Below the pieces are notes generated by a model. The model was not told the DNA's origin and did no database searches. It saw only the letters and a program-made list of their open reading frames with translations. From Nitzschia sp. pyKryTriq1 (lineage: Eukaryota; Bacillariophyta; Bacillariophyceae; Bacillariales; Bacillariaceae), in contig OY101120.1 in NCBI GenBank assembly GCA_956465555.1, positions 2,598,001 through 2,662,000 on the forward strand: DNA of 64,000 nucleotides. Reading direction: 5' to 3'. Below, one piece after another: positions 24,622-31,557 of the stretch. Positions within the stretch are counted from its first letter, which is position 1. Each line of letters opens with the position of its first letter. Both the position numbers and the translations under genes were made by a program.

Positions 24622-25149
24622 TTAAACAACGGCTCGGTTGCTTCGGCAGCCACCAAATAATCGTTGCAACAAACCCTCCTTCTTGGGAGCCGGAGCAGGC
24701 ACTGCTTCGAGGGCGCGTTGGGCCTCGGCATATCTCTCGGCTTCCAGAATTGCCGTCATGCGTTCAATCTCCTCTTGGCGGGTCATTTCGGCCCTGATTT
24801 CGAAATATGTCATCAACTCCGTGTGCAGAACCTTCTTTTGTTCTTCCAGAGCGACTCGAGCAGTCTTGCATTCGGGGTGAAAGTACGTCTTGATCTCTCC
24901 ATTTACCTCCTTGGTGCGGGTTTCGCTGTTGTAAAGCTTCGCATTGCAATGTTCGCACACCTTGGTCTTTCCGAACAGAGCCCCGAACACGTTGCTGCAG
25001 AAATCGGTAGTGCCCTGAAGAAAAGGATCAATTCCACCCTTTGCTTCTTCAAAATCCGCATCGACCTCTTCGCTTTGGGCGGGCAGGACATCTTCAGGCG
25101 ATGCTTCTTGAGGAATCATCCAAGCGGTTTCGTCGTTTCGGGGAGCCAT
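24622..25149 (-). CDS. Small protein with CxxC...HxxC zinc module (paralogue of next gene)
   Basis: Unrecognised 175-residue protein. After an acidic N-terminus (1-45), a compact module contains Cys65-x2-Cys68 and His91-x2-Cys94 in KVCEHCNAKLYNS ... KTYFHPEC, a spacing like half of a LIM or treble-clef finger. A charged helix QKKVLHTELMTYFEIRAEM follows, then an Ala/Glu helix and a basic, Cys-containing tail (LLQRLFGGCRSNR). The next gene upstream carries the same module, so the two are probably diverged paralogues. Zinc binding is inferred from ligand spacing. Intronless; the start is the only ATG before the acidic segment. Confidence 0.7.
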   Translation of the reverse strand: MAPRNDETAWMIPQEASPEDVLPAQSEEVDADFEEAKGGIDPFLQGTTDFCSNVFGALFGKTKVCEHCNAKLYNSETRTKEVNGEIKTYFHPECKTARVALEEQKKVLHTELMTYFEIRAEMTRQEEIERMTAILEAERYAEAQRALEAVPAPAPKKEGLLQRLFGGCRSNRAVV

Positions 25150-25782
25150 TGTGGAAGTAATTTTTAATGTTTAAGTAGTGTTTCAACGTGAAGGATCGAT
25201 GGTGGTGACGATGATTCTTGGGATTTGTGAAAGAAACGATGGATAGCTTGGATAACATTTTCGCCTGCAGCGTCGGTTGGCTCTTTCGACAAGCGTTCCG
25301 CCATGTATGTATCATGCGTTCCGCCATACATGTATCATCCGTTGCGCGCCCTATCATAGTGTTCTTGTGGCATTCATATAACATGTTTGACGGGTCGGAG
25401 TCGCCAAAGAATTTGTGAGTATGGACCATGGCGCGCGCAAATCGATTTTTGAGTGCTTGTTCATCCAGCAAGAGTGGTGCTCGAAGAGGAGCGTTTCGTC
25501 GCCAAACAGAAACTGCTCTATGATAGCAGTAGTATGCGCCATTAATGTCAGTGAGAAGTGAGAAGCAGCATCATACTACATAGAGAGCGCAGCGCCAAGA
25601 ATTCTGCAACTTCCAAACAAAATAATTTATGCATGCTGAAGAAATGGCGGGAACATTTTTCTCTCTGCAGACAATATAATATGTCCACAGTACTACTTGT
25701 ACCAATACTAAGGAGCACTCTCGAAGAGTACAATATAAGATACGTACGAGTACTAGTCTGTGTATAATATGAATGAATGGTC
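25150..25782. other. Spacer between the two zinc-module genes
   Basis: 633 bp. It carries a 23-bp tandem duplication at 25293-25338. Frames up to about 125 residues look random. It should hold the promoter of the 175-residue gene and the 3' UTR of the 616-residue gene. Confidence 0.5.
25293..25338. repeat. Two tandem copies of a 23-bp unit
   Basis: GCGTTCCGCCAT followed by a TGTATCAT end occurs twice head to tail (25293-25315 and 25316-25338) with two or three differences in the middle. It lies about 150 bp upstream of the 175-residue zinc-module gene, in its likely promoter. Confidence 0.85.
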
Positions 25783-27633
25783 TCAGCATGACAAATCTTC
25801 GGAAACTGTAGGTAGCAGATCTGGCACCACAGACGCCAAAGCTTCATCATTTTTCGTGTAACCTTCGTTGAGCCTCTGAAGAATTTTTGCTTCTACTAGC
25901 GGCAAGGCAGAAGGGACATCATCTGCTTTTGCCTCCAACGACGAAGGTACATCTTCTGGCGGCGATGGACACCTGGCTTCTAGCGGCAAGGACGAAGGTA
26001 CATCATCCGCTTTTGCTTCCAAGGACGAGGGTACGTCTTCTTTCGCTGGCGGCGATGGACACCTGGGAGCCACAGTAGCGTTCAACGGAGCAAATGGAGA
26101 AGCGGCACAAACCTTTACACTCATCTTCGAGTCGCTGAAAATAAGTTGTGTTTCCGATTTGGGTCTCCTGGTGAAGCGCTTCTTGATCTTGCGAGCAAGA
26201 GCAGAGATGCTTTTTCTAACATTCTTGAAACGTTTCTTCTTCGTAGTACACGTACTGGTAGTAGCAGTACTTGTTGTTAAAGTCGTCGCTTCTTTTTGTA
26301 CGACTATCTGGGGTGGTATGCTTCGAAGCTTGTATTCTCCTGTCAAAAGTTCTTCATGGACAACTTTCTTCTGGTTTTTCACCTTTTCTCTGGCAGCGTA
26401 GCAGTCGCGATGAAAGTACACCGACGCATCTTCCACGTCATATGTAGCACGATTCTCTTTGACTCGTCGATCTGTGAGTGACAACTTCTTTCTACAGTAG
26501 TCGCAATGCTTGGCACCCATGAGATCCGAAAAGAAGTTACCCGTGGAAAACGTCGCGCTGTCCGCGACGGTTCCTGTCGTGAGAAGGACGATTCCAGACG
26601 ACTCGTCCTCAATGCTTCCTTCGGCTATTTCATCGAGTTGATCTTTTTCTTTCTCACATGTTGTTTCACCGCATATGAAACCTGCAGCTCGAGAAGCTTT
26701 CTGCTTCGGTCGAGCTGGAAAAGCCTCGTTATTTGTGCTCGGAGTACCCCCAAACAGACCGCAAGAAGCACCGTCTCGATATTTCTCTTCGTCTTCGGGG
26801 CGTTCCCCAATGAGAAGCATTTCCGAGTCTTCATCAAAAGACACCTCGCCATCCAAGAAGCTCTTGCTTCCTGATGGCAATCCGATCGACTTGCCGAGGA
26901 TCGAGTCAAACGTATCAATACTAGCAGACACAACGACGTCTGCTTGTTTCTTGGTGTCACCCTTGTCCTTCTGGTGGACCACACTCTCCGTCTTGCTGCT
27001 GACCACGGATGGAGCTTTCGATTTGGATCCTTGCTTAGATTCTTGATCGCATTCGCCTACGCCTTCCTCCTTGTTATTCTTGGAGGCGTGCTCCTCCTCC
27101 GACAGAAGTATATCATTGCCAACCAACGAGGCGGCAACGGTCACTGTTTCAGGATTATCATCACCATGTTGTTCCTTTTTTTCAGCTACTCCTCCTCTAG
27201 TATTAGGCGACGGCCCACAGCAGGCCATGAAATTCGTCGTCTCTTCTTGCAAGAAGTTCGATATCATGATCATGTTGTTGCTGTAGGTTCTTTCCACAAT
27301 CATCTCGTGACTGCTTTTCTCGCTCATCACCAAAGATTCCTTGGTCCTCGAAGCACTGCTCCCACCCCCTGACGAACTCGCCGAAATGGTAGACACTTGG
27401 CGTATTACCTTTGCATCGTCATGATGATCCTCGACGCCGCCTTGCTGCTGTTTCTTCTTTGCCAACAAAGGAAGAAGTTGTCCTCGAAACAGACGAGAAA
27501 GTAGTTTCTTGTCGTTTTCGAGAATCGGGTTCTTTTTCTTCTTGTTGTGGTTGTCCTTGTCAGCAGGGAGAGCAGCATCATAGATCCATTCCTCAGTACT
27601 TGGAAGCGCTGTGGTATGACGAGGGGTCAACAT
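25783..27633 (-). CDS. Large paralogue with CxxC...HxxC zinc module and C-terminal repeats
   Basis: Unrecognised 616-residue protein, intronless. Residues 1-360 are low-complexity and charged, with a Cys-Cys pair (MACCGPSP, about 136-143). The module shared with the gene downstream lies at about 366-432: Cys377-x2-Cys380 in KHCDYCRKKL and His408-x2-Cys411 in VYFHRDC, followed by NQKKVVHEELLT (QKKVLHTELMT in the neighbour). A basic region with RKSISALARKIKKRFTRR follows. The C-terminus has two copies of a Pro/Ser repeat around RCPSPP ... EDVPSSLEAKADDVPSS. The same ligand spacing and flanks in two adjacent genes point to local duplication and divergence. Function unknown. Confidence 0.7.
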   Translation of the reverse strand: MLTPRHTTALPSTEEWIYDAALPADKDNHNKKKKNPILENDKKLLSRLFRGQLLPLLAKKKQQQGGVEDHHDDAKVIRQVSTISASSSGGGSSASRTKESLVMSEKSSHEMIVERTYSNNMIMISNFLQEETTNFMACCGPSPNTRGGVAEKKEQHGDDNPETVTVAASLVGNDILLSEEEHASKNNKEEGVGECDQESKQGSKSKAPSVVSSKTESVVHQKDKGDTKKQADVVVSASIDTFDSILGKSIGLPSGSKSFLDGEVSFDEDSEMLLIGERPEDEEKYRDGASCGLFGGTPSTNNEAFPARPKQKASRAAGFICGETTCEKEKDQLDEIAEGSIEDESSGIVLLTTGTVADSATFSTGNFFSDLMGAKHCDYCRKKLSLTDRRVKENRATYDVEDASVYFHRDCYAAREKVKNQKKVVHEELLTGEYKLRSIPPQIVVQKEATTLTTSTATTSTCTTKKKRFKNVRKSISALARKIKKRFTRRPKSETQLIFSDSKMSVKVCAASPFAPLNATVAPRCPSPPAKEDVPSSLEAKADDVPSSLPLEARCPSPPEDVPSSLEAKADDVPSALPLVEAKILQRLNEGYTKNDEALASVVPDLLPTVSEDLSC

Positions 27634-28344: not shown

Positions 28345-31300
28345 ATGGCAACAGGAGGCATCAACCTCTCCAAGGAGTTCTTTGAGCTCCTGAAAGCAAT
28401 CGGCGAGGCCAAGTCGAAGCAAGAAGAGGACCGCATTATTGTGAAGGAAATCCAATGCTTGAAGCAAAAGCTGGAGCCGCCTCCGCCCGGCGTGACTCCC
28501 CCGCTGCAGAGCAAGAAAAAGGCCAAGGAGTTCCTCGTGCGTTTACTGTATGTGGAAATGCTGGGCCACGATGCGAGTTTTGGGTACATTAAAGCGGTGG
28601 AAATGGCGGCCAGTGCTTCGCTGTACCACAAGCGGACAGGCTACCTCGTGTGTTCGGCGTGTCTCTCCCCGGAACACGAGTTCCGATTCATGCTCGTCAA
28701 CCAAATGCAGCGAGACATGCAGAGCGCCAATGTTCTAGAAATCGCCGGTGGGCTCCAAGCCGCGACGGCCCTAATCACCAGCGACATGGTCCCCGCTGTT
28801 AGCGGCGAAGTCACCAAGTTGCTCGCGCACGACAGCGAAACGGTCCGCAAGAAGGCGATCATCGCGTTGTATCGCTTTTACCAGCTCTCACCGGATGTGG
28901 TCACAGAAGAAGAGCTCTTTGAGAAGGTCCGCAAGGTCCTCTGCGATCGGGACCCCGCCGTGATGGGGTCCTGTCTCAACGTCATTGAAGGTATGGCGGT
29001 CCAGAACCCGACGCAGTTCAAAGACTTGATTCCATCGCTCGTGAGTATTCTCAAGCAAATTGGGGAACACCGACTGCCGACCGACTTTGATTACCATCGC
29101 GTGCCAGCGCCGTGGATGCAGATCCGACTGGTCCGTATCTTGAGTCTTTTGGGGCAATCCGATGCGGCCGCTTCGAGTGGCATGTACGAGATTCTACTAG
29201 ATACGATGAAAAAAGCCGATGTGGGCATCAACGCTGGCTACGCCATCGTCTATGAATGCATCAAGTGTATTACCAAGATCTACCCCAACACTAAATTGTT
29301 GGATGCCGCAGCGGATGCGATTAGTCGATTCATTGATTCGAGATCGAACAATCTCAAGTACTTGGGCGTTACCGGCCTGGCTCTTATTGTGGAAACTCAT
29401 CCTCAATATGCGGCCCAACATCAAATGTCCGTTATGGACTGCCTAGAAGATCCAGATGAAACATTGCAACGCAAGACTTTGGATCTCTTGTACCGTATGA
29501 CCAATCCAGTCAATGTCGAATTCATCACCGACAAACTCTTGGACTTTTTGAGAGGCACCACCGACTTGTTCTTGAAGCAGCAACTCACCACCCGTGTCTG
29601 TTCGGTCGCCGAAAGATACGCACCCGATAATGGCTGGTACATTAAAACGATCACCAATCTCTTTGAAGTCAGTGGAGATATGGTGGATTTGCAAGTCGCT
29701 CAAAATCTCATGAGTCTAATTGCCGAAGGAACGGGCGAATCGGAAGAACAAGACATGATGCTCCGTCAAACCGCCATTGAATTGTATGTGCAACTCTTGC
29801 AAGACAAACCACCGGCTCAATTGCCCAGAATCTTGTTGGAAACCATGGCCTGGTGTTTGGGAGAGTACGCCTATTTGAGTTCGGCCATGAGTGTGGAACA
29901 AATCCTTCAGAATTTGTGTCTGTGGAACAAGGAACAGTTGACCGATAGTACACGCAAGTTTTTAACATCGGCGATTTTCAAATTGGTCGCCCAAGCAGGA
30001 ACTTGTCCACCCGAAGCGGCCGAATTGATCGACGAATACACGCGCAGTAAGGACGTCGATCTACAACAACGCTGTTTGGAATTTCAAAACATGCTGACCA
30101 TGGCCCCACAATACTTGGGAGAGATACTCCCGGTGGATGCGAGTGCAGAGGATGTCGATGTGGATATCAACTTGAGCTTTTTGGATAATTTCTGTCAAGA
30201 GGCCCTTGTCAATGGTGCCAGATCCTACTCGAAACCGGAAGACGATGATGACGACGAGGATGCTTTGTATGGTGCCTCATCCGCTACAACGACAAGTGCC
30301 TTCAAGATGACACCCTATGCTAAACCCGAAACCAACATCAACCGATCGAATATGATTCGGGGTATGGGCAGTGGAGGCATAACCTCGACTCCAGGTGTTA
30401 CCTTACCACCTGGATCCAATTCGGGAAATACTGCCATTCTTTCGACTCAAGCTCAACCGACCAGTGATGCCCTGCAAATAAATACACGCGGTGTCAATGT
30501 ATGGGGAAAGAAACCACAAGCCCCGCCACCTCCCGAAGCGGCCTCCGCACCACCTGCTACCGCGCCGATTCCTCGATCATCCTTTGATCTTGCGTCACCG
30601 GGTGGCTCCTTTGGGGCTTCTTCTGCGCACCATACCAGCAGCAGCAGTAATCCCTATGGAGGATTTGGATCGTCCTCTTCTGGATATGGTGGCTTTTCTT
30701 CGCCAGCTCCAGCACCTCCACCGCAAAAGACACCGGAGCAATTGGAAAAGGAACGCATGGCTGCCGCTTTGTTCGGAGGAATCGTTCCAGGCGCGGTTCC
30801 ACCACCGCCCCCGGCCCCTGCCCCGCCACCACCCCGAGCAGCTCCCGTAGCAGCCCCCCCGGTGGCAGCACCTCCCGCCCCGGCTCCAGCGCCAGAAGTC
30901 GATTTGCTCGATTTTGGATCCTTTGATCCCTCTCCATCGACTGCCGCTCCTGCAGCCCCGGCCTTGGATATCTTTGCGTCGACGCCCAATCTCGTCGACT
31001 CTTCACCCGCCCCGGCCGCGGCGACCACAGCGCCCGCCATTGTCGAAACGGTCAGTGACGATGAAGAAGAGTCGCCACCCCCGGTGCCGACGGCACCACC
31101 ACCTGCGCCTGCCGCTCCCGAAGATCCGTTTGCTGCCGAAGGGTTGTTGGGCGGTGTTACTGATGCGCCACTCAAAAGCTTTGGACTTTCCTCGTCCAAG
31201 TTTGAATTCAATGGTAGTGTCATGGCACCCATGAAGATTGTCACTGCTCAATTCGGCCAACAGTGGGGAAGTTGCCCAGCTACCAGTCCAGTTTCTGTCA

Positions 31301-31557
31301 CTTCTTCCAAAGTATCTACTTTGGATCAATTTATGAAAAAGTGTGAAGAATCCGGATTGCATCTGGTCGAGGCCATTGGAGCTACGAATGAAGGAATTTG
31401 TGCCGGCATGGTGAATGGTGGAAGCATTGTTGTTCTGGTCCATGGAAAAGTGACGCCAGTGGGTATCGGTCAAGCCAAGCTGGATGTGACGGTCAAGTCG
31501 ACCGATCAGACCCTCTCAGGATCCTTGGCCCTCTATCTTCAAAACATGATTCAATAA
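28345..31557 (+). CDS. AP4E1: AP-4 complex subunit epsilon
   Basis: Large adaptin of the AP-4 coat, which sorts cargo at the trans-Golgi network without clathrin. Intronless, 1,070 residues. The trunk (about 1-620) matches plant AP-4 epsilon as I recall it: SKEFFELLKAIGEAKSK, YVEMLGHDASFGYI, KRTGYL, VRKKAIIALYRF, CDRDPAVMG, ILKQIGEHRLP, ECIKCITKIYPNTKLLDAAA and CLEDPDETLQRKT. A Pro/Ala/Ser-rich hinge covers about 640-950, with a possible clathrin- or accessory-box like acidic LLDFGSFDP. A C-terminal ear-like domain covers about 960-1070. The epsilon signature at the start and the LEDPDETL block separate it from gamma, alpha and delta adaptins. The stop codon lies within an AATAAA hexamer (31553-31558). 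Confidence 0.95.
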   Translation: MATGGINLSKEFFELLKAIGEAKSKQEEDRIIVKEIQCLKQKLEPPPPGVTPPLQSKKKAKEFLVRLLYVEMLGHDASFGYIKAVEMAASASLYHKRTGYLVCSACLSPEHEFRFMLVNQMQRDMQSANVLEIAGGLQAATALITSDMVPAVSGEVTKLLAHDSETVRKKAIIALYRFYQLSPDVVTEEELFEKVRKVLCDRDPAVMGSCLNVIEGMAVQNPTQFKDLIPSLVSILKQIGEHRLPTDFDYHRVPAPWMQIRLVRILSLLGQSDAAASSGMYEILLDTMKKADVGINAGYAIVYECIKCITKIYPNTKLLDAAADAISRFIDSRSNNLKYLGVTGLALIVETHPQYAAQHQMSVMDCLEDPDETLQRKTLDLLYRMTNPVNVEFITDKLLDFLRGTTDLFLKQQLTTRVCSVAERYAPDNGWYIKTITNLFEVSGDMVDLQVAQNLMSLIAEGTGESEEQDMMLRQTAIELYVQLLQDKPPAQLPRILLETMAWCLGEYAYLSSAMSVEQILQNLCLWNKEQLTDSTRKFLTSAIFKLVAQAGTCPPEAAELIDEYTRSKDVDLQQRCLEFQNMLTMAPQYLGEILPVDASAEDVDVDINLSFLDNFCQEALVNGARSYSKPEDDDDDEDALYGASSATTTSAFKMTPYAKPETNINRSNMIRGMGSGGITSTPGVTLPPGSNSGNTAILSTQAQPTSDALQINTRGVNVWGKKPQAPPPPEAASAPPATAPIPRSSFDLASPGGSFGASSAHHTSSSSNPYGGFGSSSSGYGGFSSPAPAPPPQKTPEQLEKERMAAALFGGIVPGAVPPPPPAPAPPPPRAAPVAAPPVAAPPAPAPAPEVDLLDFGSFDPSPSTAAPAAPALDIFASTPNLVDSSPAPAAATTAPAIVETVSDDEEESPPPVPTAPPPAPAAPEDPFAAEGLLGGVTDAPLKSFGLSSSKFEFNGSVMAPMKIVTAQFGQQWGSCPATSPVSVTSSKVSTLDQFMKKCEESGLHLVEAIGATNEGICAGMVNGGSIVVLVHGKVTPVGIGQAKLDVTVKSTDQTLSGSLALYLQNMIQ

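Follow-up and report, generated by a model that had tools for sequence, protein, structure and literature searches.

What two adjacent genes of a diatom share, and whether the shared part belongs to a known class of zinc finger, is the question raised by a 64,000-nucleotide stretch of Nitzschia sp. pyKryTriq1. This whole stretch, here called the window, is C6:2598001-2662000 of the genome that we searched (40.65 Mb on 20 contigs). The two genes encode P0001 and P0002, and their features are listed below in window coordinates.

24622..25149, minus strand: P0001, a 175-amino acid protein with an acidic N-terminus, the zinc module, a long predicted helix and the end KKEGLLQRLFGGCRSNRAVV
24973..25026, minus strand: hydrophobic helix predicted by AlphaFold directly ahead of the finger, P0001 residues 42-59
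24868..24957, minus strand: putative zinc finger core of P0001, C65-x2-C68-x22-H91-x2-C94, with a predicted hairpin at 78-82/85-89
24703..24876, minus strand: long helix of P0001 predicted by AlphaFold, residues 92-149, starting within the HxxC turn
25783..27633, minus strand: P0002, a 616-amino acid protein, low-complexity for the most part, with one zinc module
26329..26538, minus strand: module of P0002, residues 366-435, ligands C377, C380, H408 and C411
25893..26041, no strand assigned: tandem duplication in P0002, past the module and not belonging to it

The ligand pattern in P0002 is C377-x2-C380-x27-H408-x2-C411, and in both proteins the HxxC block is followed at once by QKKV-x-H-x-EL-[ML]-T. 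In a single pairwise BLASTP comparison the proteins align at 48.1 bits (E = 4e-11, 33 of 98 residues identical), with the likeness beginning about 12 residues N-terminal of the first Cys. The initial annotation had described this CxxC-x22/27-HxxC block and its continuation, and had taken a four-ligand zinc-type module plus the following helix as the part common to two otherwise unlike proteins. Both descriptions hold, and the BLASTP matches overlap the module. The tandem duplication in P0002 consists of two 65-nucleotide copies that lie 84 bases apart and are 86% identical.

The module is a dispersed family of at least ten genes on three contigs, set in otherwise different proteins. Eight further module genes lie outside the window, three on contig C1 and five on C4, and querying the genome with a consensus returned exactly the same ten places. 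Leave-one-out profiles recovered the held-out member in all ten cases (E <= 3.6e-10). Four other candidates (L005, L023, L025 and L032) were dropped, as they showed no in-frame module upon reading. The family is real, larger than the two-gene view of the locus, and without a name in the libraries searched; the initial annotation likewise had no family name for the module. No Pfam family scored above its cut-off in any of the ten proteins (that of L029 was read to residue 1036, where the fetched stretch ends), and NCBIfam yielded no named family either (best E = 0.044). The lowest single Pfam E-value for the modules was 0.0028, for LpqV (14.3 bits against a cut-off of 25). LpqV, CagS, DUF5446, LegC3_N, Sec20, Fe_bilin_red, ATPase-cat_bd and MIOS_WD40 were discounted as low-scoring and probably fortuitous matches, each in one protein and each below the cut-off wherever one was given. 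Scans of viral contigs (64 pattern matches for P0001, none for the L027 protein) and of prokaryote genomes (326 pattern matches for P0001) confirmed no relative, such single-protein scans detecting close relatives only. A published description of the family was not found among the titles and abstract openings of the papers listed, which were not searched by family sequence, and no literature match joined diatoms with a PARP-type zinc finger.

The four ligands are invariant across the ten members in the module alignment. The His of CxHC and an Arg four residues past the last Cys are each present in nine, and identity to the P0001 module is 15-36% across the other members. The gap between the second and third ligands is 26-30 residues in nine members (27, as aligned, in L027) and 22 in P0001. 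Counted from the first Met, the open frames run from 175 to 1087 amino acids. In an all-versus-all BLASTP of the ten proteins, the matches at E <= 0.1 all overlap the module except for one, which overlaps a decayed copy of it in the L027 protein. This protein, also recorded as L060 (C4:3122461-3125577), carries the second copy over residues 337-405, to which a ten-sequence search gave a domain E of 2.1e-5 and where by eye CTQQ stands in place of CxxC and HQSS in place of HxxC.

The module also divides each protein by charge. The arm before it carries a net negative charge in eight members, the exceptions being L029 (zero) and L019 (+12), the arm after it is net positive in all ten, and charge density increases across the module in every case. 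The 30 residues ahead of CxxC exceed the protein mean in hydrophobicity throughout the family. By eye, the N-terminal half of L056 (C1:367310-370573) holds about five internal repeats around DPCGNAMGIFSW, which recall the hydrophobic stretch ahead of CxxC in P0001. Short motifs that members seem, again by eye, to have in common outside the module are SDWFDTL, SSWSCLG and TDFCSNVFGALFG; a pattern test placed them at the edge of the shuffles. Codon usage was uninformative.

Seven of the genes form tandem groups, a pair on C6, another pair on C1 and a trio on C4, one strand within each group, and three members (L004, L019 and L027) are solitary. Because of these groups and solitary loci, repeated tandem and dispersed duplication in the family is clear. 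In the tree, in which five of seven inner branches are drawn open and L016 is a long branch, the C1 group is supported at 100/99 and the C4 group at 94/95, the latter just under the star of the tool. The window genes fall between these groups, where P0001 adjoins C1 and P0002 adjoins C4 at a weak 78/73. The initial annotation had read the pair as a local duplication, and P0001 and P0002 are indeed mutual best BLASTP matches among the ten. However, they belong to a dispersed family on three contigs and come out as one group in just 8% of the 200 bootstrap trees, so a late duplication of the pair alone fits poorly. The distance to the end of the contig is 95-370 kb for all ten module genes, the contigs being 2.9-4.7 Mb long. 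For five loci to fall within 370 kb of an end has a uniform chance of 0.0003 with contigs fixed, a value for which the threshold was chosen post hoc and contig ends may differ from chromosome ends.

An AlphaFold single-sequence model of P0001 places strands at 78-82 and 85-89 and a helix at 92-149, the helix with a block predicted local distance difference test score (pLDDT) of 70-85. Residues 42-59 have a block pLDDT of 55-61 in this model and below 50 in a second run, of 77 residues. The second run gave strands at 79-82 and 85-88 and a helix at 92-115. These low-confidence models suggest that a hairpin precedes a helix that starts at HxxC, and a treble-clef-like fold class is fairly likely for the module.

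On these grounds we tentatively propose, with somewhat less than even confidence, an expanded family of at least ten largely low-complexity, probably disordered diatom proteins in which the CCHC zinc module acts as a protein-protein assembly element. Each protein would have one recognizable folded part, the module of about 75-90 residues, which would run in treble-clef order from a hydrophobic helix through a CxxC knuckle and a beta hairpin to HxxC in the opening turn of the long helix. Zinc would pin the long helix at its base, and this helix could form, jointly with the hydrophobic lead helix, a surface for pairing with partners or other family members. The module would thereby link an N-terminal arm, acidic in most members, to a net basic C-terminal arm. 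By descent or by analogy of structure, it would be a distant counterpart of the PARP-type finger, probably one that no longer reads DNA breaks or never did. Assembly is favored over DNA-break binding because the ligands are invariant, the long helix is conserved and few DNA-contact residues are present. The basic arms may leave room for a nucleic-acid role. Computation shows the family, its invariant ligands, the charge asymmetry and the tandem grouping; zinc binding, the fold, disorder, the assembly function and any kinship by descent with PARP-type fingers are inferred. Many diatom proteins fall in no known family; a ten-member paralogue set with a four-ligand signature in one genome suffices for a profile, with which "hypothetical proteins" of other diatoms could be labeled. 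Should PARP-type ancestry prove true, a DNA-break sensor fold would have been turned to another use.

The strongest competitor, which we consider unlikely, is that the modules are divergent zf-PARP fingers which continue to bind DNA, at breaks or otherwise, and gain affinity from the basic arm. Weak, sub-threshold leads in the protein sequences suggest that the PARP-type CCHC finger is the closest known kind. The top Pfam lead of P0001 is zf-PARP (PF00645), which scores 15.6 bits over the entire protein and 17.6 bits over the module, below the curated cut-off of 39.3 bits. The P0001 module has the lowest zf-PARP E-value in the family, and any zf-PARP match at E <= 10 occurs in two of ten members. 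A PDB profile search put the DNA ligase III finger 1uw0 on top (E = 0.11). In a profile-profile comparison, the family matches zf-PARP at 75.1% with a score of 30.9 over 51 columns, the four ligands all aligned. This score exceeds 100 of 100 controls with family columns permuted and ligands fixed (mean 14.4, max 27.0), and 100 of 100 controls in which the zf-PARP columns were permuted (mean 14.2, max 24.8). The zf-PARP rows, however, match a seven-row LIM profile at 74.8%, and therefore such a score can stem from shared zinc-finger geometry alone. Each of the three sub-families scores higher to zf-PARP (C6 51.2%, C1 21.5%, C4 68.8%) than to LIM (11.1%, 1.4% and 4.6%, respectively). The PARP-type ligand gap of 26-37 accommodates nine of ten members; P0001, with 22, lies outside, and L010, an above-cut-off zf-PARP of the same genome, likewise has a gap of 22. 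The comparison rows from this genome were L008-L012 of seven places, including L012 at 35.8 bits, under the zf-PARP cut-off; L013 and L014 were omitted as weak. L009 and L010 (C7:1036467-1037144) are two above-cut-off zf-PARP fingers in one frame that continues, by eye, into the apparent start of an SNF2-type helicase.

PMC3094755 gives the DNA-contact residues of PARP1 F2 as K119, S120, R122, K134, R138 and W157, and reports that mutating contact residues abolishes or reduces DNA binding. We scored them by gap-free positions (K -6, S -5, R -3, K +6, R +10 and W two before His). In this order, the residues so listed are kept in 0, 0, 0, 3, 2 and 0 of the ten members, against 3, 5, 6, 7, 8 and 4 of eight zf-PARP rows. 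R122, K134 and R138 are the telling positions because the zf-PARP rows retain these most. The Arg at the R138 position is retained in both window proteins, a point for DNA binding, while most members lack the F2 residues named in that source. The initial annotation had stated that a known LIM, PARP-type or RING subtype would contradict its reading, and this touches it in part, the PARP-type profile being the nearest. We do not file the module under zf-PARP because it scores below the family cut-off and lacks most DNA-contact residues; the two are kept apart, though the fold may be common to both.

A bolder history joins these strands: an undescribed diatom family, expanded in its lineage, would have switched a PARP-type finger fold from reading DNA breaks to organizing disordered, oppositely charged arms. 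The C6 pair would be the surviving source locus, and the C1 and C4 groups near contig ends would descend from one copy each. We regard this as speculative and quite unlikely in full.

Also improbable, in our estimate decidedly so, is a membrane- or organelle-targeting module whose lead helix inserts while the basic arm lies on acidic membrane, perhaps in silica or vesicle biology. The hydrophobicity ahead of CxxC in all ten members would suit such a role, but the stretch is short and modest, and no signal peptide was evident in P0001 or P0002 when judged by eye without a predictor. The genome has eight silicon transporter places above the family cut-off, a number that all but marks it as that of a diatom, five of them within the first 320 kb of C1 (C1:79892-317295; L063-L065 among others). 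Three C1 module genes lie in the same stretch, at 172, 365 and 368 kb. That these three share the first 370 kb with five transporter places fits the idea of targeting, yet the proximity may be coincidence.

That the module is half a LIM domain, or another named double-zinc finger minus its second site, is very improbable. LIM comprises two linked zinc sites with eight ligands, and its first half also reads CxxC...HxxC, with a spacing of 16-23; RING is a cross-brace with eight ligands. The resemblance in order to the first half of LIM, and sub-threshold Pfam leads in one member each to zf-HC5HC2H and two zinc ribbons, are what speak for a lost second site. Set against them, the spacing of 22-30 is mostly above that of LIM, and no second CxxC was seen by eye downstream in the ten module segments. 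Against three LIM rows the family reaches 1.5%, its score of 14.8 comparing with a permuted mean of 12.4 and maximum of 19.7; against seven rows, a set without a permuted control, it reaches 2.5%. The rows from this genome were L052-L054 of four places, L055 being omitted. A LIM assignment was rejected on ligand count (four conserved) and on profile similarity. RING was rejected as well, with only four ligands conserved and no RING among the seven Pfam families matched at E <= 10, and an ePHD-like reading was set aside as a lone sub-threshold Pfam lead. Chance or composition-driven likeness of two adjacent genes has next to no probability given the pairwise BLASTP match, the ten-place consensus query and the leave-one-out profiles, and is refuted because a profile built from the eight outside genes singled out P0001 and P0002, and no others, from the 962 window peptides.

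The neighbors of the pair in the window are ordinary, comprising an Nramp transporter, a 2OG-Fe(II) oxygenase, a methyltransferase and the large chain of an adaptin. The last, at 28345-31557, bears an appendage domain of the AP4 epsilon type and lies divergent from and upstream of P0002.

Compared with known systems, the module resembles LIM (PF00412) in the C-x2-C...H-x2-C order of the first half. Unlike LIM, it has four conserved ligands only, a gap (22-30) that is mostly longer and little profile similarity. The likeness to the PARP-type CCHC finger, as in PARP1 F1/F2, DNA ligase III and plant ZDP, goes further. As described in PMC3094755, that finger has a three-stranded sheet, with the first Cys pair on an extended hairpin, and two packed helices, the first of which carries HxxC in its opening turn. 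The diatom modules have the same ligand order, C-x2-C...H-x2-C, with a long second gap (26-30 in nine of ten members), a hydrophobic residue at +4 past the second Cys in all ten, an aromatic two before His in seven and, in low-confidence predicted models, a hairpin followed by the HxxC-bearing helix. Unlike PARP-type fingers, all ten modules lack the upstream Arg and Ser of the DNA loop and the Trp, eight lack the sheet Arg, and their scores are under the Pfam cut-off. They are also set apart by a hydrophobic stretch before the module, a long, charged predicted helix after it, and proteins in which no other Pfam family rises above its cut-off.
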